Below are positions 3,254-62,766 of a DNA stretch of 64,000 nucleotides, one piece after another; the first letter of the stretch is position 1; the number at the start of each line of letters is the position of its first letter. The DNA is from Niabella beijingensis. GTDB lineage: Bacteria; Bacteroidota; Bacteroidia; Chitinophagales; Chitinophagaceae. Location: the NCBI RefSeq assembly GCF_020034665.1, contig NZ_JAIQDI010000002.1, positions 558,001 through 622,000 on the forward strand. Reading direction: 5' to 3'. The position numbers were made by a program, and so were the translations under genes. The notes under the pieces were generated by a model, which was not told the origin of the DNA, ran no database searches, and saw only the letters and a list, made by a program, of their open reading frames with translations.

Positions 3254-6200
3254 ATGCGAAAAAAAAGACTTACTTACTCTATCCAAAACCTCAAACAGAT
3301 TATGCGCATTTCGTTTATGCTATGGGCGTTTCTTTTTACCACCTGTATCGTTCTTGCCAGCAATAGCAGCTACGGACAAAAGGAGCTGGAGCGGACCATT
3401 CATGTTAATTTCAGTAATATCAGTCTGCAGCAGGCGCTTGAGAAATTACAGACCGACTACCAGATACCGCTGGCTTACAATAACAATGAAGTTTTTCTGA
3501 AAGCCCGGGTGAACTATACGGCCACAAAGCCGGCAAAAGTTATACTGGCCGACCTGTTAAAAAACCACAACATGACTTTTGAGTTGCGACACGACTTTGT
3601 CCGTATCATACGCCGCCAAACGCCGGGCCGGCCGGCCTTTTCACAGGATCGCGAAATCACCGGTACCGTCGTTAACAGGGCGGGAGAGCCCCTGGCCGGT
3701 GTTTCTGTTTTTGTAAAAGATAAACCGGGCACCGGAACCACCACCGATATCAACGGGAAGTTTGTACTGGTGGTGCCTTCTTCAGCAACGCTCGTATTCC
3801 AGATCGTATCCTACAAACCGGTAGAAGTGGTGGTGGGCGCCCAGCGCTCGTTACAGGTAACAATGGAGCTTACAGAAAAGGGCCTGGATGAAGTAGTGGT
3901 AGTAGGTTTCGGAACACAGAAAAAGATAAGCCTTGTAGGGGCGCAGTCGACTGTAAAAGCAAAAGATCTTCAGATCCCGGTCGCCAACCTTTCCAATGCG
4001 TTATCCGGACGTATTGCAGGTGTGGTTTCCGTACAACGTACCGGGGAGCCGGGGTTTGATGATGCCAGCATCTGGATCCGCGGTATCTCCACCTTCAGCC
4101 AGGGACTGAGCGCACCACTGGTGCTGGTAGACGGCACACCACGCAAAATGGCGAATGTTGATCCGGAAGATATTGAGAGTTTCACCGTCCTGAAAGACGC
4201 CTCCGCAACCGCGGTTTACGGGGTACGGGGTGCTAATGGGGTGGTGATCATCAAAACAAAAAGCGGGCGTACCGGGCGTCCGAAATTTAACTTCCGGTAT
4301 TATGAAGGCATTACCGAGTTCACCAAACTTCCGGAGTTCGCAGATGGGATCACTTATATGCAGATGTCCAACGAAGCATTGACCAACCGTGGTGCGAACC
4401 CCCTCTACAGTGAAGAGCGGATTCAGAAAACAGCCGGTGGGGAAGATCCTTATCTTTACCCGAATGTTGATTGGATGGCCACCCTGTTCAACAGACACGG
4501 GTACCAGCGGCGCGGTAACCTCAATATCAATGGAGGATCCGACCTGACAACCTATTATGTAGGGATCAGCTATTTTGATGAAAAGGGATTGTACAAACAG
4601 GATGACCTGGTAAAGTACAATCAGCAGGTGGGTTACAAACGTTATAATCTTACCTCCAACCTTACTGTTAAGCCATCTCAGCTTGCAAAGATAGAATTGG
4701 GGATCCAGGGGTATCTTGCCAACGCCAACTACCCCGCAACCGCACAGGCCGATATTTTTGAAGGGGCCTGGTTTATGACACCGGTTGTGCATCCCCCGAT
4801 GTTTGAAAATGGCACAGTACCCGATCAACGGGCCGGGTCGCTGCAAAATCCGTATGCCATGCTTACCCAGACGGGTTATGCCAACCAGTGGCGCAACCAG
4901 CTTTTTTCAAATTTACGGGCAACCCATGACCTGCCGTTTATCACAAAAGGATTGTCTGCCACAGCGATGTTTTCGTTTGATGTGTACAACTACACCAGCA
5001 TGCGGAGAACAAAACGGCCCGATACATTTCTCGCCACGGGAAGGGATGAGAACGGAGAAATGCAATACGAACAAACCTATGTGGGAGAGCGCTTCTTAAG
5101 TTTCAGCCGCAACAGCATCGGGGAACGGACCATGTATGTTGAAGCAGCCCTGAACTATAACCGCTCTTTCAGCAAACATAATACAACAGGGATGTTGTTG
5201 TTTAATAAAAGCGACCGGCTGGATGCACAGGCAACTAATTTTATCAACTCGCTTCCTTACCGCTACCTGGGGCTTTCCGGCCGTGCTACCTATAACTACG
5301 ACAGCCGTTATTTCGGGGAATTCAATTTCGGCTATAACGGATCCGAAAACTTTGCGCCTGAAAGCCGGTTCGGCTTCTTTCCCTCTGTGGGCCTGGCCTG
5401 GGTTGTCAGCGAAGAGCCCTTTTTTGGTGATCTGAAGGAGCACCTGCCCCTGGCCAAGATTCGGTTCTCGCATGGTAAGGTAGGCAACAGTAATATTGAG
5501 GGCGACCGCCGCTTTGCCTATATCTCGACAGTTGAAGGTACCACGGGGTACGAATTCGGAAAGGGCAGAAACAATACGTTCCCGGGTTACAATATAGGAG
5601 AATATGGCGTTAATGTTACCTGGGAAACGGCCATTAAAACCAACCTGGGTATCGATCTCCAAACAAGGAACAATGCCCTCATTTTCCAGTTTGATTTATT
5701 TAAGGAACGCCGCGAAGGGATCTTCCTCCGGCGGGGCAATGTTCCCGGCTACGTAGGACTGCAAAAAGCACCTTACGGGAACCTGGGTATCATCGAAAAT
5801 AAAGGATTCGACGGTTCGCTTACCTATTCAAAAAAGATCGGTGATTTCTCTTTCCAGGTGCTGGGCAACCTGACCTATAACCGGAATAATATTATTGAAA
5901 ATGACCAACCCGCTCCGTTATATCCCTGGCTGGACCAGCGCGGGCATAAAGTAGGACAACGCTGGGGACTGAATGCGCTCGGCCTGTTCGAATCGGAAGA
6001 TGAGATCGCCAATGGCCCGCTGCACCCGGGCCTGGTGAAGCCCGGAGACATCCGGTTCCAGGATGTGAACGGCGACGGGAAAATAGATGACTTCGATAAA
6101 ATACCCATCGGATACGGCACTATTCCCGAACTCGTTTATGGATTTGGCCTTTCGGTTTCCTACGGAAATTTTTCAGTATCCTCCCTTTTCCAGGGTGTGG

Positions 6201-52090: not shown

Positions 52091-52221
52091 TCGTACCGCG
52101 GTACCGGCCTTTCTGTAAGGCGATCCGCCGGAGGCGCTGCTGTTTTCATGACTGCCGGTTAAGCCGGTATACATTATTCCGGATTTTTTTTACGGAGGCG
52201 TAGGGGTAACGCTTTTTTGAG

Positions 52222-52250
52222 TTGTATTGTTAAAAGCAATACTATATTTA
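52222..52250 (+). promoter_or_regulatory. Candidate promoter with internal inverted repeat before the ECF sigma gene
   Basis: TTG at 52222-52224 and TATATTTA at 52243-52250 (one mismatch to TAnnTTTG) are separated by 18 bp. The spacer holds a perfect inverted repeat gtattg-ttaaaag-caatac (52224-52242), a possible operator. If used, transcription would begin about 52256, almost at the ATG (52258), giving a nearly leaderless mRNA. Confidence 0.35.
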
Positions 52251-52257
52251 CGCCCGG

Positions 52258-52797
52258 ATGGCCTTTGACAGTGCGCAATACAAACGTGTTTTTGATCTTC
52301 ATTATGAGGAATTGTATGGCTATGCCTGTTCGATCCTGCGGTCGGAGGTATATGTGGAGGACATTGTGCAGAATATTTTTATCCGGTTATGGCAGACACG
52401 GGATACTGTTCGGATGGGGTCTGTGAGGGCCTATCTGTACACAGCGGTGCGCAATGAATGCTTTAATCATTTAAAACATAAGAATGTACGGGTGGCCCAT
52501 GCACAATCCGTTCTGGCCGCAGGTGAGGGAACGACGCACCACTTCCGGGCAGAAGAAAAAGAGTTGCAGAATAAGATACAGGAGCTGGTGAGCCGGCTTC
52601 CTGAAAAATGCGCCATGGTCTTTTATATGTGCCGGCAACTGGGGCTCAGTTACAAAGAAGTGGCGGAAAAACTGGAGATCTCCGTAAAGACCGTGGAGAA
52701 CCAGATGACAAAGGCATTGAAGTTTTTGCGGAGCGGGCTGGCAGGATACCTGGTGAGCCTGATCCTGCTGATTATTTATCCACTCTTTAATTTATAG
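52258..52797 (+). CDS. ECF RNA polymerase sigma factor (FecI-like)
   Basis: A 179-residue sigma factor. Region 2 (about 8-75) contains YKRVFDLHYEELYGYACSILRSEVYVEDIVQNIF. Region 4 (about 115-165) holds LPEKCAMVFYMCRQLGLSYKEVAEKLEISVKTVENQM. It ends in an unusually hydrophobic tail (about 160-179) that could insert in or touch the membrane. The FecR gene starts 3 bp after its stop, so the two are co-expressed. The regulon probably includes the three genes that follow. Confidence 0.95.
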   Translation: MAFDSAQYKRVFDLHYEELYGYACSILRSEVYVEDIVQNIFIRLWQTRDTVRMGSVRAYLYTAVRNECFNHLKHKNVRVAHAQSVLAAGEGTTHHFRAEEKELQNKIQELVSRLPEKCAMVFYMCRQLGLSYKEVAEKLEISVKTVENQMTKALKFLRSGLAGYLVSLILLIIYPLFNL

Positions 52798-52800
52798 AAC

Positions 52801-53754
52801 ATGGAACATCAATTGATCGCCTATTATGAGCAGCGGCTGGATGCTTCCCGGATCAAGGCAGTGGAACAATGGCTTCGCGCAGATATCCGAAATGAGAAGA
52901 TGTATGAAGAAGTGATCCGCGTGTGGCAGGCCGCAAAAACGGACCGGCAGTACCTTTATTACAATAAAGAACAGGCCTGGGAACGGCTTCAGCAGCAGAT
53001 CGCCGGGGCGCAAATGACCGGACGGGCCTCTAAACCCCGGTTGCTGCGGCTGCACTGGGCACAGATAAGTGCGGCAGCGGCCCTGGTGCTCATATTGGGT
53101 CTGCTGCTGTTGCGCATCAGCCGCCCGGAACCGGCAGCGTACATAGCGAAGGATAACCTGGAAACAATTACTTTGAAAGACGGCAGCCGGGTGGCGCTTT
53201 ATCCGCAGGGTGGTTTACAGGTGGAAAAAGACTTCAATAAGGATTCCAGGACGGTAACCTTAAAAGGGGACGCCTATTTTGACATAGCCCGAAACCCGGA
53301 GAAGCCATTTATTATCCATAATGATGATATGGAAGTGCAGGTACTGGGGACCTCGTTCACCATTCAGCAACGGGCGGACAGGTATACGGTATTTGTTCAC
53401 ACCGGCAGGGTAGAGGCCCGTTATGGCGGGCAAACGGTTACGGCAACCGCGCATCAGAAGATCATAAGGGATCTGCACAGCCGGCGGTTGCTGCTTGAAG
53501 ATATGGAAGCGGATATTGATGCAGTATTGAAATCACAAACGATACAATGTAAGGACATGCGTATCGACAGCCTCGCCAGGATCCTGAAGGAAGTGTATTA
53601 CATCGACCTGCAGCTGGGTGCGGGCATTGCAGGGAAAAGGATCACCAGTACCTACCTTTCCTATGAGACCCCGGAACAGGTGGTACAGAATATAGCGCTG
53701 ACCATCAATGCCTCCTGGAGCAGGAACGGAAACCATTATATCATCACCAAATAA
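52801..53754 (+). CDS. FecR-family anti-sigma factor
   Basis: A 317-residue membrane regulator. The N-terminal sigma-binding part is about 1-80, with a single span about 87-105. The periplasmic FecR domain (about 115-215) contains DGSRVALYPQGGLQV and GTSFTIQQ. The C-terminal DUF4974-like domain (about 235-317) carries RIDSLARILKEVYYIDL. It sequesters the sigma factor encoded just upstream until a periplasmic partner changes its state. The next gene, 6 bp downstream, encodes an STN domain, the module that normally contacts FecR, but here without a TonB receptor. Confidence 0.92.
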   Translation: MEHQLIAYYEQRLDASRIKAVEQWLRADIRNEKMYEEVIRVWQAAKTDRQYLYYNKEQAWERLQQQIAGAQMTGRASKPRLLRLHWAQISAAAALVLILGLLLLRISRPEPAAYIAKDNLETITLKDGSRVALYPQGGLQVEKDFNKDSRTVTLKGDAYFDIARNPEKPFIIHNDDMEVQVLGTSFTIQQRADRYTVFVHTGRVEARYGGQTVTATAHQKIIRDLHSRRLLLEDMEADIDAVLKSQTIQCKDMRIDSLARILKEVYYIDLQLGAGIAGKRITSTYLSYETPEQVVQNIALTINASWSRNGNHYIITK

Positions 53755-53760
53755 TTTTTT

Positions 53761-55446
53761 TTGAAGCCCTTTTTTTTTATTTTTCTTGTATTCTTTTTTG
53801 CTACCGGCGTATGCGCGCAAACCGATGGCCTTCAAAAGGTGATCTCTGTCGATTTCCGGAATATAACGATGTACGATGCCCTGAGGCAGATCGAGGCCCG
53901 GGCCGGATTCTATTTCTCCTATGATAACCAGTTCATCCGGAATCAGAAAAAGATCTCTTTTACCGCAGCAGACAAACCGGTAAAAGAGATCCTGAACCAG
54001 ATCCTGGACAACGAGTATCAATACATTGTTCAGAACAATAAGGTGATCATCCGGAAAAAAGAACAGGCAGCTGTTGAAGTGCGTGGCCGTTTTGTTGACA
54101 ACAGTGATCAGACACCAGTGGCTTATGTAAGCGTTTATGTGCCGGAACTTCAGATCGGTACCATGTCTGACCAGGAAGGCTTCTTCTCCTTAAAAGTGCC
54201 CCGGTCCGATCAACTGCTTATTACGGCCAGCCGTATTTCATACGAGGATACTGTTTTCAGCGCAGACAACAACAGCGACCGGGAATTGAATATAGCACTC
54301 ACCCCGCACATTACAGAAGCTCCTGAGATCCGCCTGAATACGGTGCAGCGGCACTGGCTGGCCCGCCGGCTGATCGGCTCCCGGCAAAAATTAAGCAGCA
54401 TCAACCTGAAAAATTATTTTTATCAGCGGAAGTTCCAGCTGGGGGTGCTTCCGGGCATTGCTACAAAGAATGTCCTCAAGGGCCAGCAGGAAAATAATTT
54501 TTCGTTTAATGTGCTGGGAGGCTATGCCGCCCAGGTGGATGCCGTGGAAATAGGAGGATTGTTCAATATCGTGCAAAAACATGTCCATTCTGTACAGATC
54601 GGAGGACTGGCCAATATTGTCGGGGGTGGTGTGAACGGCGTGCAGGTTGGGGGTATGTATAATTATGTGGGTGACAGCATGCAGGGCGTGCAGATCGGAG
54701 GACTGGTGAACACGGCGCAACAGCATACAGGCGGTGTGCAGGTCGCCGGCTGGTACAATGGTACATCTGCTTTTAACGGGCTTCAGATTGCAGGTTTGAT
54801 GAACAGGGTACGCGACAGCAGCACCGGTCTGCAACTCGCCGGATTGGTGAATGTGGCGGGCACGGTTTCCGAAGGAGTTCAGCTTTCCGGGCTGGTGAAC
54901 CGGGCATCGAAAATAAAGGGATTGCAGCTGGGGCTGGTAAACCTCGCTGACACGCTTAGGGGCGTGGCCATCGGACCGGTAAACTATCACCGGAACGGTA
55001 AGCATGCATTGTCCGTTTCCTGGCAGGAGAACAATCAGCTGAATGTGGCCTACCGGTCGGGTAGTTATACCCTGTATAATGTTGTCCAGGGTGGAGTGAC
55101 CTTTGCACCGGGCGGCGAACATTATTATTCATTTGGATATGGACTGGGAAGCGAATGGGTGCTAAAAAAGAAAATCAAAATGGCCGCCGAGCTGGTTAAC
55201 CTTTTCTATACATCCGCCGACCGCATCGATCTTAATTATACCAATCTTTCTTTCCAGCCATTGCTGCTGTACCAGCTGCGCCCGAAGCTGCAGTTGTTTG
55301 CGGGACCAAGATTGCAGTACCCGATGCCGGGTAAGGAGGATGCAGCATCTGTTCAGGATGCGTTGAACCGGAATATGCTTGCCATTAATCCGGGTAGTAA
55401 AGACGTATTGTACCTGGGCTGGACGGTAGGCATAAATATTTTCTGA
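53761..55446 (+). CDS. STN-domain protein with GLxN repeats and barrel-like C-terminus
   Basis: A 561-residue exported protein. TTG at 53761 is the start that gives a proper signal peptide (about 1-20, ends GVCAQ); no ATG fits. In order: STN domain (about 25-80, VDFRNITMYDALRQIEARAG), carboxypeptidase-like regulatory domain (about 103-190, VRGRFVDNSDQTPVAYVSVYV), a linker, then about eight repeats of roughly 20 residues with GVQIGGLxN or GLQLAGLVN cores (about 250-410). The C-terminal part (about 420-561) has alternating strands and ends GINIF with a terminal Phe, like outer-membrane barrels. No TonB plug is present. The repeats resemble surface-repeat proteins I associate with Leptospira LA_2272; this link is from memory. 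Inferred role: an outer-membrane sensor that signals to FecR. Confidence 0.85.
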   Translation: MKPFFFIFLVFFFATGVCAQTDGLQKVISVDFRNITMYDALRQIEARAGFYFSYDNQFIRNQKKISFTAADKPVKEILNQILDNEYQYIVQNNKVIIRKKEQAAVEVRGRFVDNSDQTPVAYVSVYVPELQIGTMSDQEGFFSLKVPRSDQLLITASRISYEDTVFSADNNSDRELNIALTPHITEAPEIRLNTVQRHWLARRLIGSRQKLSSINLKNYFYQRKFQLGVLPGIATKNVLKGQQENNFSFNVLGGYAAQVDAVEIGGLFNIVQKHVHSVQIGGLANIVGGGVNGVQVGGMYNYVGDSMQGVQIGGLVNTAQQHTGGVQVAGWYNGTSAFNGLQIAGLMNRVRDSSTGLQLAGLVNVAGTVSEGVQLSGLVNRASKIKGLQLGLVNLADTLRGVAIGPVNYHRNGKHALSVSWQENNQLNVAYRSGSYTLYNVVQGGVTFAPGGEHYYSFGYGLGSEWVLKKKIKMAAELVNLFYTSADRIDLNYTNLSFQPLLLYQLRPKLQLFAGPRLQYPMPGKEDAASVQDALNRNMLAINPGSKDVLYLGWTVGINIF

Positions 55447-55498
55447 GCGTATAGGGGGGACGCCGCTTTAATGTGTATTACAGGTATACATTAAAGAC

Positions 55499-56509
55499 AT
55501 GAAAAAGAAACAACTACTATGTGCATTGCTGTTGCTGGCGGCACTGAAGAGCACCGCACAGGATGGGATCGGGGAACGCATTCACCTGGGACTGGTTACA
55601 CCGCTGAGCACGCAAGGGGCCCAGGCGCGGAACGCAAGTCCGGTTTTTGCCCTGCATGCGTTACAGGGTGTAAACCGCGACAACAAAGGCCTGGCTGTTG
55701 CAGGACTTTATACCAAACTCTTTGGAAGTAACCGGGGCGTTATGATAAGTGGTCTGGTAAATGAAGTACAGGGTTCGGATAAAGGTCTGGCTGTTGCAGG
55801 CCTGGTAAATATCGCACGTAACGGCAGGGGGCTGCAGCTGGCAGGCTTGTACAATCATAATTCAGGGAATGGTTTTGCACAGATCGCAGGTATCGGTAAT
55901 TCGAACCGTTATAGTGAATTGCAGCTGGCAGGACTGATAAATATAACACGGAATGGCGGCAGCCAGATCGCCGGCCTGATAAACAAGGCAGGCACGGTTA
56001 AAGGGATACAGTTGGCAGGACTGGTGAACATCGCGGACAGTTCAGCTTATCCCATAGGAATCGTCAATATCATCAGGCAGGGTGAAAAGCAACTCGGCAT
56101 TCAGGTGTATGATGATGCTTCTGTGAGCGTGGTACTGCGTACCGGCAGTAATAAAACCTATGGTATTGTCGGGATCGGTCTTGCCAGGGAAAACAAACGA
56201 ACAATACCCCAGGGCGAAGCCGGATTGGGCTATCACATACCCATTGCCCGGAGGGTACGGGTGAACGCGGAACTGGTAATGCTGGGAAGGACCGACTTTA
56301 CCTACTTTAAACACACAGAATCACTGCGGACCCTGCTGGGATGGAAACTCACGAAGGCACTGGAACTAACGGCAGGGCCAGCGCTGTATGCCAATGCGTA
56401 CGGCGATTCAAAACTGTTCTCCGGAAGCTATATCTGGAAATCGCACCGCCAGGGCTCCTCCTTTGTTATTACGCCCGGAGCAATAGCAGGACTGAACGTC
56501 CGTCTGTAA
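55499..56509 (+). CDS. Secreted GLxN-repeat protein, paralog of the preceding gene without STN
   Basis: A 336-residue exported protein (signal about 1-21, KSTAQ). It shares with the preceding protein the 18-22-residue repeats (GLAVAGLYTKL, GVMISGLVNEV, GLAVAGLVNIA, GLQLAGLYN, GIQLAGLVNIA; about 55-195) and a C-terminal region (about 200-336) with similar strands: LGIQVYDDASVSVVLRTGS, EAGLGYHI and ELTAGPALYANAYG, ending in GLNVRL. It lacks the STN and regulatory domains. It may assemble with, or be sensed by, the larger protein. The gap is 52 bp. Confidence 0.85.
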   Translation: MKKKQLLCALLLLAALKSTAQDGIGERIHLGLVTPLSTQGAQARNASPVFALHALQGVNRDNKGLAVAGLYTKLFGSNRGVMISGLVNEVQGSDKGLAVAGLVNIARNGRGLQLAGLYNHNSGNGFAQIAGIGNSNRYSELQLAGLINITRNGGSQIAGLINKAGTVKGIQLAGLVNIADSSAYPIGIVNIIRQGEKQLGIQVYDDASVSVVLRTGSNKTYGIVGIGLARENKRTIPQGEAGLGYHIPIARRVRVNAELVMLGRTDFTYFKHTESLRTLLGWKLTKALELTAGPALYANAYGDSKLFSGSYIWKSHRQGSSFVITPGAIAGLNVRL

Positions 56510-56537
56510 ATTTTTTGTTCAACTAATTCTATAATCA

Positions 56538-57254
56538 ATGCACATGAAACCATTTTTTATTTTGATCTTCTCTCTCCTGGTCATGATCCTGACATCAGGT
56601 TGTAAAAAAGTATATCCAGATGGTCCGGCCATACGGGAAAACCGGAATGTATCCCGATTCAGAAAAATCGAAACCACTTTCAGCGCCCATGTGGAATACC
56701 GGAAAAGTCCTGATATTAAAGTAGAAGTACTGGCAGCCGAAAATATACAGCAGTATGTCATTGCTGAAGTGATTGGCGACCGGCTCATATTACGAACGCC
56801 TTCCAATATCAGCCTGAAAAGAGGCAGTGTAACGGTTTATGTGACGGCACCGGAGCTGGACGGTATAACACTTACAGGATCCGGTAATTTTACGGCTGTT
56901 GATCCGATCGATGCTGATGCCCTGACACTTGATCTTTCCGGCTCCGGGGATATCACCATTTCAGAACTCGGTACCTCCTCTCTTAAAGCGCGCATCAGCG
57001 GAAACGGAAATATTACGATAAACAGTGGCAACAGCGGACGCCAGGAGGTATCCGTTACCGGCAGCGGAGATTATAATGCACAACAGCTGGAAACGGAGGA
57101 TGCCATTGTTAAGCTAACAGGGTCCGGGGATGCCAGGGTATGGGTGCGGCGTAAACTGGATGCGACCATAACCGGCAGCGGCGACATACGGTATGCCGGC
57201 ACTCCTGAGGTGAATGCGTCCGTAACCGGATCCGGCAGTGTAAAGCGGTTGTGA
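56538..57254 (+). CDS. DUF2807 (head GIN domain) lipoprotein
   Basis: A 238-residue lipoprotein (lipobox LTSGC, Cys21 from this ATG; MKPFF two codons on is an alternative start). The body is a right-handed beta-helix-like DUF2807 domain with recurrent TGSGNF, SGSGDI, SGNGNI, TGSGDY and TGSGDA turns (about 105-235), following FRKIETTFSAHVEYRKSPDIKVEV. The family is widespread in Bacteroidota with unknown function, probably a periplasmic or surface adhesin/scaffold. It is 28 bp after the GLxN-repeat gene, so it likely belongs to the sigma/FecR unit. Confidence 0.87.
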   Translation: MHMKPFFILIFSLLVMILTSGCKKVYPDGPAIRENRNVSRFRKIETTFSAHVEYRKSPDIKVEVLAAENIQQYVIAEVIGDRLILRTPSNISLKRGSVTVYVTAPELDGITLTGSGNFTAVDPIDADALTLDLSGSGDITISELGTSSLKARISGNGNITINSGNSGRQEVSVTGSGDYNAQQLETEDAIVKLTGSGDARVWVRRKLDATITGSGDIRYAGTPEVNASVTGSGSVKRL

Positions 57255-57495: not shown

Positions 57496-57888
57496 ATGCG
57501 TAAAGGACAAAGTTATATTGGCACTTCCGGCGGGCATTACAAACACTGGAAACATCGTTTCTATCCCGAAGCGGTTAAGGAACCGGAATTTCTTGCTTTT
57601 TACCAGCAATGGTTCAGAATGGTGGAGATCAACAACAGCTTTTACCACCTCAACGGTCATCTTTCGCCGCTGGTTCCTACAGCAGATTTTATCTACATTT
57701 GTTTACATGGCCCAGGCGGCGGATATGAAGGAAGTTATGCTATGCTACAGCAATGTTAAAAAAATGGACACACAGCTGCAGAAGCTGGATGAAACAACGG
57801 GTTGGATGTTTATGTATATTTTGATAACGATCAGGAAGGATATGCCGTGAAAAACGCACTGAAGCTGACAGAATTGTTAAAACGCTGA
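57496..57888 (+). pseudogene. DUF72 protein remnant (internal deletion and frameshifts)
   Basis: The N-terminus is that of DUF72 proteins: SYIGTSGGHYKHWKHRFYPE, then FYQQWFRMVEINNSFYHL. The frame then jumps directly to TADFIYICLHGPGGGYEGSYA, which in intact proteins lies some 100-130 residues later, so the middle is deleted. A stop at 57757-57759 follows. The true C-terminus DVYVYFDNDQEGYAVKNALKL...LLKR is found in another frame ending at 57886-57888. At least two more shifts lie between about 57740 and 57810. Intact DUF72 proteins are usually 240-300 residues, against about 130 codons left here. Confidence 0.85.
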
Positions 57889-59466: not shown

Positions 59467-60861
59467 ATGACAGCATTTCCTGACAACAAAAGCCCAAAAG
59501 GTATGATTAAATCCTTAAATAAAATCCGGATCGGCTATGTATTGTCTTCCCTGCTGCTGCTAACTTCTTATATCCTTATTTTATCTACCAACCGCCGGCT
59601 GCAGACCGAGAAGGAACGCGTGGTAAACAGCTATATCCTTATCAACAAGCTGGGAGCGATCAAAATGGCTGTAAGCGAGGCCGAAACCAACGTACGGGAA
59701 TACCTGCTGAATAAAAACGAAAAGGCATTGGCCACTTTCCATACCACAAGGGCAAACCTGCATCAATTACATCAGGAGGTGCGCCGGCAGACACAATATA
59801 ACAGCCAGCAGGCACAAAGTGAATCCGTCCTGCAGACAATGACCGAAGAGCGGATGGCGCAACTGGCGACAGCGCTTATTAAGGGGAGGGCTTCTGTTCT
59901 CGGACAGGCGAACAATATATATACGCAGATCCAGGATATGACCGCGAGGGAAGAACCACTGATGCGGAAACGCATGACCCGGCTCGACAGGTTTTACAAC
60001 AGCACAGAAACGCTGACGATACTCTCCCTTTTTATGGCGGCTATAGCGGTGGTTTATGCGGTACTGACGTTTAACAGCCAGTACCGGCAGAAGAGAAAGG
60101 CCGACAAAACCGCAGATGTTTACCGGAATGAACTGGAGGAGAATGTAAAACAATTACAGGATAAGAACACCACGCTCAAGGAATTAAAAGGAATGGAAAA
60201 ACTGGCGACCATCGGGCGGGTGGCGCGCGTGGTAGCGCATGAGGTAAGGAACCCGCTCACCAATATTTCGCTGGCCACAGAACAGCTACAGGACCTTGCC
60301 TGTATCCGGCAGGACCCGGATGGCCAGCTCCTGCTGGGTATGATAGAACGTAACTCTACCCGCATCGGACAGATGGTATCTGATCTGCTGAATGCCACAA
60401 AATTCATGCAGCTGGATAAACAGCAGGCGGACCTCAACCAATTGCTGGATGAAAGCCTGGCAATGGCGCGGGACCGGCTGGTGCTGCGGAAGATCGAAGT
60501 GGTAAAAAATTATTCGGATAAAGTATGTGATGTAATGGTGGATAAGGAACGTATCAGGCTGGCATTCCTGAATATTATCGTAAACGCCATTGAGGCCATG
60601 CGCGAAGGAGCGGGGATACTGGAGCTGACCACAAAACGCGACGGCGACCGCTGCATTGTGGAAGTCCGCGACAATGGAAGCGGGATGGATGAGGCTACCC
60701 TGCAGAATTTGTTTGAACCTTATTTTACAATGAAGAAGAAAGGAAACGGGCTTGGTCTGACGAACTCGCAGAACATTGTATTAAATCATAAGGGCAATAT
60801 CAAGGTGAGCAGTGAGCCCGGCAAGGGTAGTTTGTTTGTTATTTCATTGAATGTCCTGTAA
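59467..60861 (+). CDS. CHASE3-like sensor histidine kinase
   Basis: A 464-residue membrane kinase (ATG 59503 is an alternative start). Two spans (about 22-41 and 183-202) enclose a helical periplasmic sensor (about 45-180) with the CHASE3-like pattern VNSYILINKLGAIKMAVSEAETNVREYLLNKNE. A coiled coil leads to the HisKA domain with phospho-acceptor His258 (VVAHEVRNPL). The ATPase domain has the N box (NIIVNAIEAM), G1 (VRDNGSGMDE) and G2 (KKKGNGLGL). Its likely output is the NtrC-type regulator at 61405, with the lone receiver at 60865 as modulator. Confidence 0.93.
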   Translation: MTAFPDNKSPKGMIKSLNKIRIGYVLSSLLLLTSYILILSTNRRLQTEKERVVNSYILINKLGAIKMAVSEAETNVREYLLNKNEKALATFHTTRANLHQLHQEVRRQTQYNSQQAQSESVLQTMTEERMAQLATALIKGRASVLGQANNIYTQIQDMTAREEPLMRKRMTRLDRFYNSTETLTILSLFMAAIAVVYAVLTFNSQYRQKRKADKTADVYRNELEENVKQLQDKNTTLKELKGMEKLATIGRVARVVAHEVRNPLTNISLATEQLQDLACIRQDPDGQLLLGMIERNSTRIGQMVSDLLNATKFMQLDKQQADLNQLLDESLAMARDRLVLRKIEVVKNYSDKVCDVMVDKERIRLAFLNIIVNAIEAMREGAGILELTTKRDGDRCIVEVRDNGSGMDEATLQNLFEPYFTMKKKGNGLGLTNSQNIVLNHKGNIKVSSEPGKGSLFVISLNVL

Positions 60862-60864
60862 TGT

Positions 60865-61281
60865 TCAGCGTGGGGAATGTTGTCTTTTATCGATGATCGC
60901 AAGGATCTCCTTTCGGGTAAAGGGTTTTCCTATAAAATCATCGGCACCATTGCTGACTGCCATTTTCCGGTCGTAACTGGTGTCATAAGCGGTTATCATT
61001 ATGATAGGGGCCGCCGTGAGCTTTTTAAAACTGCCAATAAATTGATACCCCAGTCCGTCCGGAAGCCGGTTGTCCAGGAAAATAAGATCGATATCAGGGT
61101 TTTTTTTCAGGACATCGAAGGCTTCTGATATCGATGCCGCTGAAACAGTCTGAATATCCCGTTGTTTTAGTATATTTCCGATAAGGAAGTAGATATCCGC
61201 TTCGTCATCAACGACTAAAGCCTTTGATATCCGGTCGGAAAGGTACGGAGCCTGTGTATGTAAAGCATTGTTACGGGTCAC
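60865..61281 (-). CDS. Single-domain response regulator receiver
   Basis: A 138-residue protein consisting of one REC domain: acidic pair in ALVVDDE (Asp25/Asp26), phospho-acceptor Asp70 (LIFLDNRLP), Thr97 (MITAY) and Lys119 (FIGKPF). No output domain follows. It is convergent with the kinase gene (stops 3 bp apart) and divergent from the NtrC gene. It may act as a phosphate sink or as a protein-protein switch on the same pathway. Confidence 0.92.
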   Translation of the reverse strand: MTRNNALHTQAPYLSDRISKALVVDDEADIYFLIGNILKQRDIQTVSAASISEAFDVLKKNPDIDLIFLDNRLPDGLGYQFIGSFKKLTAAPIIMITAYDTSYDRKMAVSNGADDFIGKPFTRKEILAIIDKRQHSPR

Positions 61282-61404
61282 TAAAAAATCGCGACAATTA
61301 TTTTGCCAAACAGCAAATTTCCCGGCTTAAAAAAGTTCAGGTAAAAACCGGCACGATTTGCGCTGTAAGATAATTATTAAACGTACTGGTTAATTACATT
61401 CATT

Positions 61405-62766
61405 ATGTCCACTAAACTCCTCATTATTGATGACGATATCGACCTGTGTCATTTATTGTCACGCTTTCTTTCAAAAAACGGATATGAGGTGGAGACCGCA
61501 TATTCAGGAAATAAGGGTCTGACTAAATATAAGGCAGACAAATATGATGCGGTCATTGCTGATTATCGCCTGGGTGATATGGATGGGGTAGATCTGGTAA
61601 GAGCGTTGAGGCAGTACGATGATCAGGCCGCTATATTGGTTATTACCGGTTATTCAGAAGTGAAACCGGCTGTGGAAGTCATTAAGCTGGGAGCCTTTGA
61701 CTATATCTCGAAACCGCTTATTCCGGAAGAGGTGCTCAGTATTTTGAACAGGATCGTAAACCGGCCGGAGCGGGATCCCGATGATGCGCCGACCACCGGA
61801 AGAACGGCTGTTACGGACGATGGTGAGGATTGTTACATCGGGAAATCGCTGCCTACCCTTCAGTTGTACCGCCAGGTGGAAGTGGTGGCTGCCACGAGGT
61901 ACAGTGTGATCCTTTACGGGGAAAGCGGTACCGGTAAAGAAGTGATTGCCCGGTCCATTCACCGGCGCAGCCAGCGTGCATCCGGACCTTTTGTGGCGCT
62001 GGATTGCGGTACGCTTTCGCGGGAGCTGGCCGGCAGCGAATTGTTTGGTCATATAAAAGGTTCTTTTACCGGGGCCATACAGGATAAGGAAGGACATTTT
62101 GAACTGGCGAACGGAGGGACTTTGTTCCTGGACGAGATCGGCAACCTGTCACCGGAGATACAGGCCGCATTGTTGCGCGTGATCCAGGAGCGGAAGTTTA
62201 AGCGGATCGGCAGTAACAAAGAGTTGCTGACCGATGTCCGGATCATTGTGGCCTCCAATGAAGACCTCCGGCAGGCCTGTCAGAACGGGAAATTCCGGGA
62301 AGATCTCTATCACCGGCTCAACGAATTCTCCATAGACCTGCCTCCGTTGCGGGAGCGCAGGGAAGACATCCGCCCGCTGGCCGATTTTTTTCTGCAAAAA
62401 TGCTGTGAGGAGAATGAAAAGACTGTTGACGGATTTAATGAAGAAGTATATGAATTATTCCAGAACTATGCATGGCCGGGTAACCTCCGGGAACTGAAAA
62501 ATATGATCCGGCGGGCGATCCTGCTGACACCGGAGCGCGCTACCGTGGATCGCACGGTTCTGCCACATGAGATCAGGGAAACAGAGCCGGAAGTAGCGGG
62601 TGAACAGGGGGCAACCACTGATCTTTTAAAGAAGGCCGCCGGACGGGCGGAATACCAGACGATCATGTCGGTACTGCAAAAAGTGAATTTCAATAAAAAG
62701 AAGGCGGCAGAGGTTTTAAATATCGACCGCAAGACCCTTTATAATAAACTAAAACCCTATGAATAA
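61405..62766 (+). CDS. NtrC-family sigma-54-dependent response regulator
   Basis: A 453-residue activator. The REC domain (1-118) has phospho-acceptor Asp53 (VIADYRLGDMD). The AAA+ domain (about 143-375) has Walker A GESGTGKE (172-179), the sigma-54 contact loop GSFTGA (219-224; the first Ala of the usual GAFTGA is Ser), Walker B GTLFLDEIG and the arginine-finger region LPPLRERREDI. The C-terminal Fis-type helix-turn-helix is NFNKKKAAEVLNIDRKTLYNKL. It turns on sigma-54 promoters when phosphorylated, presumably by the kinase at 59467. Confidence 0.95.
   Translation: MSTKLLIIDDDIDLCHLLSRFLSKNGYEVETAYSGNKGLTKYKADKYDAVIADYRLGDMDGVDLVRALRQYDDQAAILVITGYSEVKPAVEVIKLGAFDYISKPLIPEEVLSILNRIVNRPERDPDDAPTTGRTAVTDDGEDCYIGKSLPTLQLYRQVEVVAATRYSVILYGESGTGKEVIARSIHRRSQRASGPFVALDCGTLSRELAGSELFGHIKGSFTGAIQDKEGHFELANGGTLFLDEIGNLSPEIQAALLRVIQERKFKRIGSNKELLTDVRIIVASNEDLRQACQNGKFREDLYHRLNEFSIDLPPLRERREDIRPLADFFLQKCCEENEKTVDGFNEEVYELFQNYAWPGNLRELKNMIRRAILLTPERATVDRTVLPHEIRETEPEVAGEQGATTDLLKKAAGRAEYQTIMSVLQKVNFNKKKAAEVLNIDRKTLYNKLKPYE

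Follow-up and report, generated by a model that had tools for sequence, protein, structure and literature searches.

The stretch of DNA examined here (the window) comprises 64,000 nucleotides of Niabella beijingensis contig NZ_JAIQDI010000002.1, positions 558,001 to 622,000 of the forward strand. Positions 52258-57254 contain five open reading frames (ORFs) on a single strand, separated by gaps of 3, 6, 52 and 28 bp and encoding an extracytoplasmic function (ECF) sigma factor, a FecR-type anti-sigma factor, a protein with an STN domain and GLxN repeats, a paralog without STN and a DUF2807 protein. The coordinates and curated family matches agree with this gene set as it had been described from the letters alone (the sequence-only reading). 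As a genetic unit, this probable variant of cell-surface signalling (CSS) is well supported by the results below.

52258..52797, + strand: ECF sigma factor; TIGR02985, 157 bits (cut-off 126); hydrophobic C-terminal tail
52801..53754, + strand: FecR-type anti-sigma factor; PF04773, 53.9 bits (cut-off 24)
53761..55446, + strand: putative STN transducer without TonB receptor parts; TTG start; signal-peptide-like N-terminus; 561 aa
55499..56509, + strand: paralog without STN; predicted solenoid (residues ~28-192) and 8-stranded barrel (residues ~195-336)
56538..57254, + strand: DUF2807 protein; PF10988, 156 bits (cut-off 24.2)

All family matches of the paralog fell below their cut-offs (NF047436, 13.5 bits against 25). 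The DUF2807 protein is probably a lipoprotein, reading its N-terminal ...LTSGC as a lipobox. The closest named homologs of the STN protein are Niabella proteins with 62-65% identity, some of which carry the name 'STN and carboxypeptidase regulatory-like domain-containing protein'. The long STN protein was found in 11 of 17 genomes of the genus, and the other six gave SusC-type matches only, among the matches listed.

Domain structure of the STN protein

Family profiles and structure models divide the STN protein into the following regions.

53830..54066, + strand: STN domain (residues ~24-102; PF07660 at residues 52-100; beta-alpha-beta pattern in the model)
54070..54321, + strand: carboxypeptidase-regulatory-like domain (residues ~104-187)
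54322..54489, + strand: linker (residues ~188-243), mostly of low confidence, with a predicted local distance difference test score (pLDDT) <50 at 186-192 and 207-243
54490..54990, + strand: GLxN repeats, a predicted beta-solenoid (residues ~244-410; ~16 residues per turn)
54991..55443, + strand: predicted 8-stranded outer-membrane-type barrel (residues ~411-561; last residue Phe)

The STN family PF07660 was matched with 29.6 bits (cut-off 28.4), CarbopepD_reg_2 with 46.8 bits (cut-off 32.2) and, in the repeats, NF047436 (LA_2272 surface repeat) with 45.7 bits (cut-off 25). Neither a Plug nor a TonB-barrel family was matched at E≤1, and the structure prediction ends in an 8-stranded barrel, which bears out the proposal of the sequence-only reading that plug and receptor are absent. 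STN was present in 58 of 60 homologs, with neither Plug nor TonB_dep_Rec among the families listed for these 60. The host genome contains 27 FecR genes and 21 STN matches (17 above the cut-off), of which 18 are in frames of 887-1210 aa, two in frames of FecR length and one in the window protein, which is therefore the only short STN protein found in this genome.

Across 76 homologs each protein has on average 6.25 copies of the repeat motif GxQxxGxxN, versus 0.04 after shuffling, and successive copies were spaced by exactly 16 residues in 316 cases and by 15 in 34; the window protein has six strict copies (residues 293-380). Barrel structures matched residues 412-561 of the STN protein and 195-336 of the paralog, with exactly eight strands in each, and beta-helix proteins matched residues 200-413 of the STN protein. 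Since the barrel matches are confined to the last ~150 residues and the beta-helix matches to the region before them, the earlier assignment of the repeats to a barrel-like part was ruled out, and a predicted solenoid preceding the barrel replaces it. Among the matches listed for the paralog no beta-helix was found, barrel proteins filling the list, and the STN part had no direct match among those listed for it. The barrel shares its fold with the 8-stranded barrels of OmpA, OprF-N and NspA at 4-16% identity, a likeness of fold that does not imply kinship. Since the solenoid is N-terminal to an 8-stranded barrel, it would be expected in the periplasm, contrary to the earlier view of the repeats as the surface-exposed part of a sensor.

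Linkage to sigma factor and FecR genes

A scan of species genomes gave 332 loci with relatives, from which the best 80 were kept by alignment of the STN-bearing proteins. Three of the 80 begin at the contig edge of the STN gene, leaving 77 evaluable loci, and sigma and FecR genes lay directly upstream of the STN gene in 75 of them; the FecR gene is broken in L054 and the STN gene is split in L057. The two exceptions, both in Chitinophaga genomes (L083 and L088), encode an STN-solenoid-barrel protein with no sigma or FecR gene nearby. In both loci a peptidase-like gene follows the STN-solenoid-barrel gene.

The strongest test that STN makes a solenoid-barrel protein a FecR partner is a sample of the phylum, in which relatives were found in 62 of 395 genomes searched and 40 neighbourhoods were taken from 39 of the 62. 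FecR was adjacent in 16 of the 17 STN-bearing loci, at least two of which (L135 and L137) were already in the first set, versus none of the 23 STN-less loci, which belong mostly to one family (Fisher p 2.7e-10). A sigma gene was adjacent in 15 of the 17 and in none of the 23; in the STN-less locus L152 one lies ~2 kb away on the opposite strand. The presence of STN alone thus parts linked from unlinked relatives, and the tie between STN-repeat proteins and sigma/FecR genes that had been proposed from the window holds across both sets.

The STN-less solenoid-barrel genes (L147-L169) stand in stable neighbourhoods of their own, without FecR and with MsrB-like, PH-domain-like and PagL-type genes, of which PagL is the one with a Pfam check.

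A promoter-like motif

A promoter-like motif was found 29 bp before the start codon of the sigma gene, and a weaker copy precedes the paralog.

52201..52228, + strand: TAGGGGTAA-N11-GTTGTATT; 15 of 16 consensus positions; 27.5 bits, the top-scoring site of the window
55452..55479, + strand: weak second copy; 10.9 bits; an exact-pattern match, with higher-scoring orthologous sites at other Niabella loci

In 69 of 75 loci the region upstream of the sigma gene agreed with the consensus TAGGGGTAA-N11-GTTGTCWT at 12 or more of its 16 positions. This count was made on the loci from which the consensus had been chosen by eye; the matrix test on the phylum sample described below is the fairer one. Of 1520 random 380-base pieces drawn from these loci, 77 also reached ≥12 of the 16 positions, in part owing to inclusion of the true site. 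With its G-rich box ~16 bases before TC, the motif is laid out much like an ECF promoter.

With a weight matrix (≥19.7 bits) 139 sites were found in the 80 loci, 131 of them within 400 bp before a sigma (64), paralog (34), TonB-receptor-like (22), DUF2807 (7) or PepSY-like (4) gene. The remaining eight seem to be covered by mechanically called ORFs of these genes that are too long, and every one of the 75 sites not before a sigma gene is on the + strand. In the phylum sample, the matrix built from first-set sites found a site of ≥17 bits in 15 of the 17 loci with STN and in none of the 23 without it, and the two STN-bearing loci without the motif are exactly the two without a sigma gene. Since the motif of the sigma gene also precedes the paralog and the DUF2807 gene in many relatives, both look like outputs of the sigma factor, which leaves standing the output part of the earlier suggestion that they act as ligand, co-receptor or output.

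A promoter common to all FecI-type sigma factors of the host genome was ruled out: 19 other sigma genes scored ≤0.7 bits versus 27.5 at the window site. These 19 were the testable ones (a 20th region gave no sigma, and six further FecR genes of the 27 were left out), and their 'SusC' label is unchecked for individual partners.

Exact and relaxed patterns, scanned across 79 genomes (that of L085 left out), gave 26, 26 and 51 sites in 16, 17 and 46 genomes versus 5, 5 and 8 sites for the reversed pattern. Judged by position, 26 of the 103 sites were off-locus, hardly exceeding the 18 control sites in all, and the motif is accordingly weak as a genome-wide finder of regulons. These 26 were followed by DUF2807 and receptor-like genes (one), a receptor-like gene (one), an LpxL-type gene within ~250 bp (two) or at >600 bp (one), a fatty-acid hydroxylase gene (three, one genus), a START-like gene (two, one genus) and other or unclear genes (16).

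Sigma factor and FecR proteins

The hydrophobic C-terminal tail of the sigma factor (52740-52797 in the window) was found in 64 of the 76 sigma factors of the set, which counts a second one in L084, versus 2 of the 19 others of the host genome; it might tether the protein to the membrane. A tree parted the set from these 19 at one branch (support 71/2, long branches). The STN-like FecR_C family (PF16344) was matched at E≤0.001 in 38 of 40 FecR relatives; the FecR of the window, not among the 38, scored 18.4 bits against a cut-off of 24.4.

Proposed mechanism and alternatives

From the computed gene order, domains, linkage and motif we infer a topology, an STN-FecR contact, a processing step for FecR and a pairing of sigma factor and motif, as follows. 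The 53761 protein would be held in the outer membrane by its OmpA-sized 8-stranded barrel, the GLxN solenoid hanging beneath it and the flexible linker presenting the carboxypeptidase-regulatory-like and STN domains in the periplasm. There STN would touch the STN-like C-terminus of FecR, itself in the inner membrane, and a change at the barrel or solenoid may alter this contact, such that FecR is processed and the sigma factor freed. The sigma factor would then read the putative promoter TAGGGGTAA-N11-GTTGTCWT before its own operon, the paralog, the DUF2807 gene and, in many relatives, also an STN-less TonB-receptor-like gene. It is probable that the system is such a CSS variant, in which a small barrel carried on a periplasmic solenoid serves as transducer and the sigma factor drives an outer-membrane protein set of its own. 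The earlier idea of an outer-membrane sensor is supported in part, for the missing TonB receptor and the gene linkage but not for the repeats as its surface or barrel part.

Several results weigh against this assignment. Three STN-bearing members (L083, L088 and L139) have no sigma or FecR gene nearby and L146 has no sigma gene; besides the STN-less members, these three were the only ones unlinked to both, the kind of member that the sequence-only reading had named as evidence against itself. The STN score of the window protein barely clears its cut-off, the FecR_C match of the window FecR is below its own, and the split of the sigma set is supported by only 71/2. The predicted template modelling scores of 0.55 and 0.67 leave the domain arrangement unsure. 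A pattern with one mismatch found four sites in the host genome versus 14 for the reversed control, the sole perfect site being that of the window, and a receptor-like homolog in this genome (37% identity) has no motif of ≥12 bits in the 5.3 kb examined.

The STN protein could instead be a passive outer-membrane output of a sigma/FecR operon in which another protein is the sensor, as would fit its having operon and promoter in common with clear outputs and the occurrence of solenoid-barrel proteins without signalling (the paralog and the proteins of the 23 loci without STN). This explanation is very improbable, given that the presence of STN, needless in a passive output, tracks FecR adjacency as described above, and that these operons showed no second STN gene. 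The receptor-like gene raises another alternative. A ~780-aa TonB-receptor-like protein without STN is encoded in 34 of the 80 loci, with a carboxypeptidase-regulatory domain in all 34, Plug in 16 and TonB-barrel in five (E≤0.001). This protein could be the true sensor and importer, to which STN is lent in trans, making the system an ordinary nutrient-responsive CSS in two pieces. The 22 motif sites before the receptor-like gene point that way, as do the two motif-bearing copies away from the locus, one in L237 and one, behind DUF2807, in L233. Nevertheless, such a split transducer is unlikely: 46 of the 80 loci, including that of the window, have no receptor-like gene in the fetched flank, the host-genome homolog is without the motif, Plug and TonB-barrel were matched in the minority of the receptor-like proteins just given, and the STN transducer has a predicted barrel of its own. 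The presence of the receptor-like gene, often with the motif, nonetheless weakens the earlier claim of signalling without transport, which is perhaps true of the transducer and not of the whole system.

What the CSS variant might sense is approached through the genes around it. Conceivably, though doubtfully, the small barrel reads the state of lipid A or of outer-membrane lipids and the regulon remodels lipids and envelope. Five of the 80 loci have a gene for an LpxL-type acyltransferase (PF03279) close to the STN gene; in four of them, all Dyadobacter, it comes immediately after the paralog. Such a gene also follows a motif site within ~250 bp in the host genome (G000:C2:2665837-2665864) and in the Chitinophaga-type genome G462; in a third case, G463, the distance is greater (>600 bp). 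Fatty-acid hydroxylases (PF04116) are encoded within the operon or next to it in L071, L112 and L127 (two with a Pfam check), and in three genomes from the genus of the window such a gene follows a motif site (one with a Pfam check). Four Niabella loci (L050-L053) have a START-like gene behind DUF2807, and two further genomes of the genus have one that follows a motif site; the Pfam START match stayed under its cut-off (19.3 of 22). In 12 of the 23 loci with STN-less homologs, a gene for a PagL-type lipid A deacylase lies nearby (one representative checked). Set against this, the lipid genes are confined to few, partly related genomes, the off-locus sites barely exceed the reversed-pattern control, 16 of the 26 have none of these gene classes, and no direct tie to a lipid signal emerged. 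A dedicated pathway of the Bacteroidota for outer-membrane lipid (lipid A or asymmetry), running from barrel through solenoid and STN to FecR, with the sigma factor driving acyltransferase, fatty-acid hydroxylase and START-like genes besides the paralog, DUF2807 and the receptor-like protein, is accordingly put forward only tentatively.

Comparison with known systems

CSS has been viewed as an add-on to TonB importers. In the present system, input to the same sigma/FecR relay appears to come from an outer-membrane protein of another kind, whose barrel is too small to serve as an importer. The operon resembles CSS of the FecI-FecR-FecA type and the SusC-linked sigma/FecR pairs of Bacteroidota in combining an ECF sigma factor, FecR and an outer-membrane protein (by prediction here) with N-terminal STN. 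In contrast to FecI-FecR-FecA, the plug and the 22-stranded TonB receptor barrel are replaced by a solenoid and an 8-stranded barrel, and a putative promoter motif of its own and an STN-less paralog are added. The repeats score above the family cut-off of the LA_2272 surface-repeat proteins (NF047436), whereas that family name is silent on STN, sigma factor and FecR.

STN signalling without a TonB barrel is already known from VreA of the PUMA3 system (VreA-VreR-VreI) of Pseudomonas aeruginosa, described in PMC2729926 as a mostly soluble protein of 23 kDa with a TolA/TonB-like C-terminus, with VreR in a separate unit. The premise of the sequence-only reading that STN always forms the N-terminus of a TonB-dependent transducer is therefore too strong. 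The 53761 protein lacks the TolA/TonB-like C-terminus and is not predicted to be a soluble periplasmic protein; compared with VreA as described there, it is longer (561 aa), has a predicted solenoid and barrel, and is encoded with sigma factor and FecR in one operon. New here is the variant with a solenoid and small-barrel transducer. In the Fox system, according to PMC11637429, the STN-type signalling domain binds the anti-sigma factor without signal and shields it from proteolysis; the same source gives the C-terminal subdomain of PupR as STN-like. The proposed switch may accordingly work in either direction.

No description of this sigma/FecR/solenoid-barrel system was found in searches of an open-licence library with few subscription papers. 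The analysis supplies names and a frame for a family labelled in databases only as 'STN and carboxypeptidase regulatory-like domain-containing protein'. The conserved motif offers a direct and inexpensive read-out and a predicted regulon, by which the signal, perhaps outer-membrane state, could be tested in culturable bacteria.

Neighbouring genes

In other Niabella loci (L050, 12420-16122) the DUF2807 and START-like genes are followed by genes for an SDR protein, an HpnA-like epimerase, a LytS-type kinase and a LytTR regulator, which are absent from the operon of the window. Downstream of the DUF2807 gene in the window, a short ORF at 57496-57759 resembles the start of a DUF72-type protein and is presumably a gene remnant, and the ORFs at 59467-62766 are taken to encode a sensor kinase, a response regulator and a sigma-54-type regulator. 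A second FecR and an STN receptor of SusC length are encoded near the start of the window, at ~2431-2706 and 3356-3817 (G000:C2:560431 and 561356).

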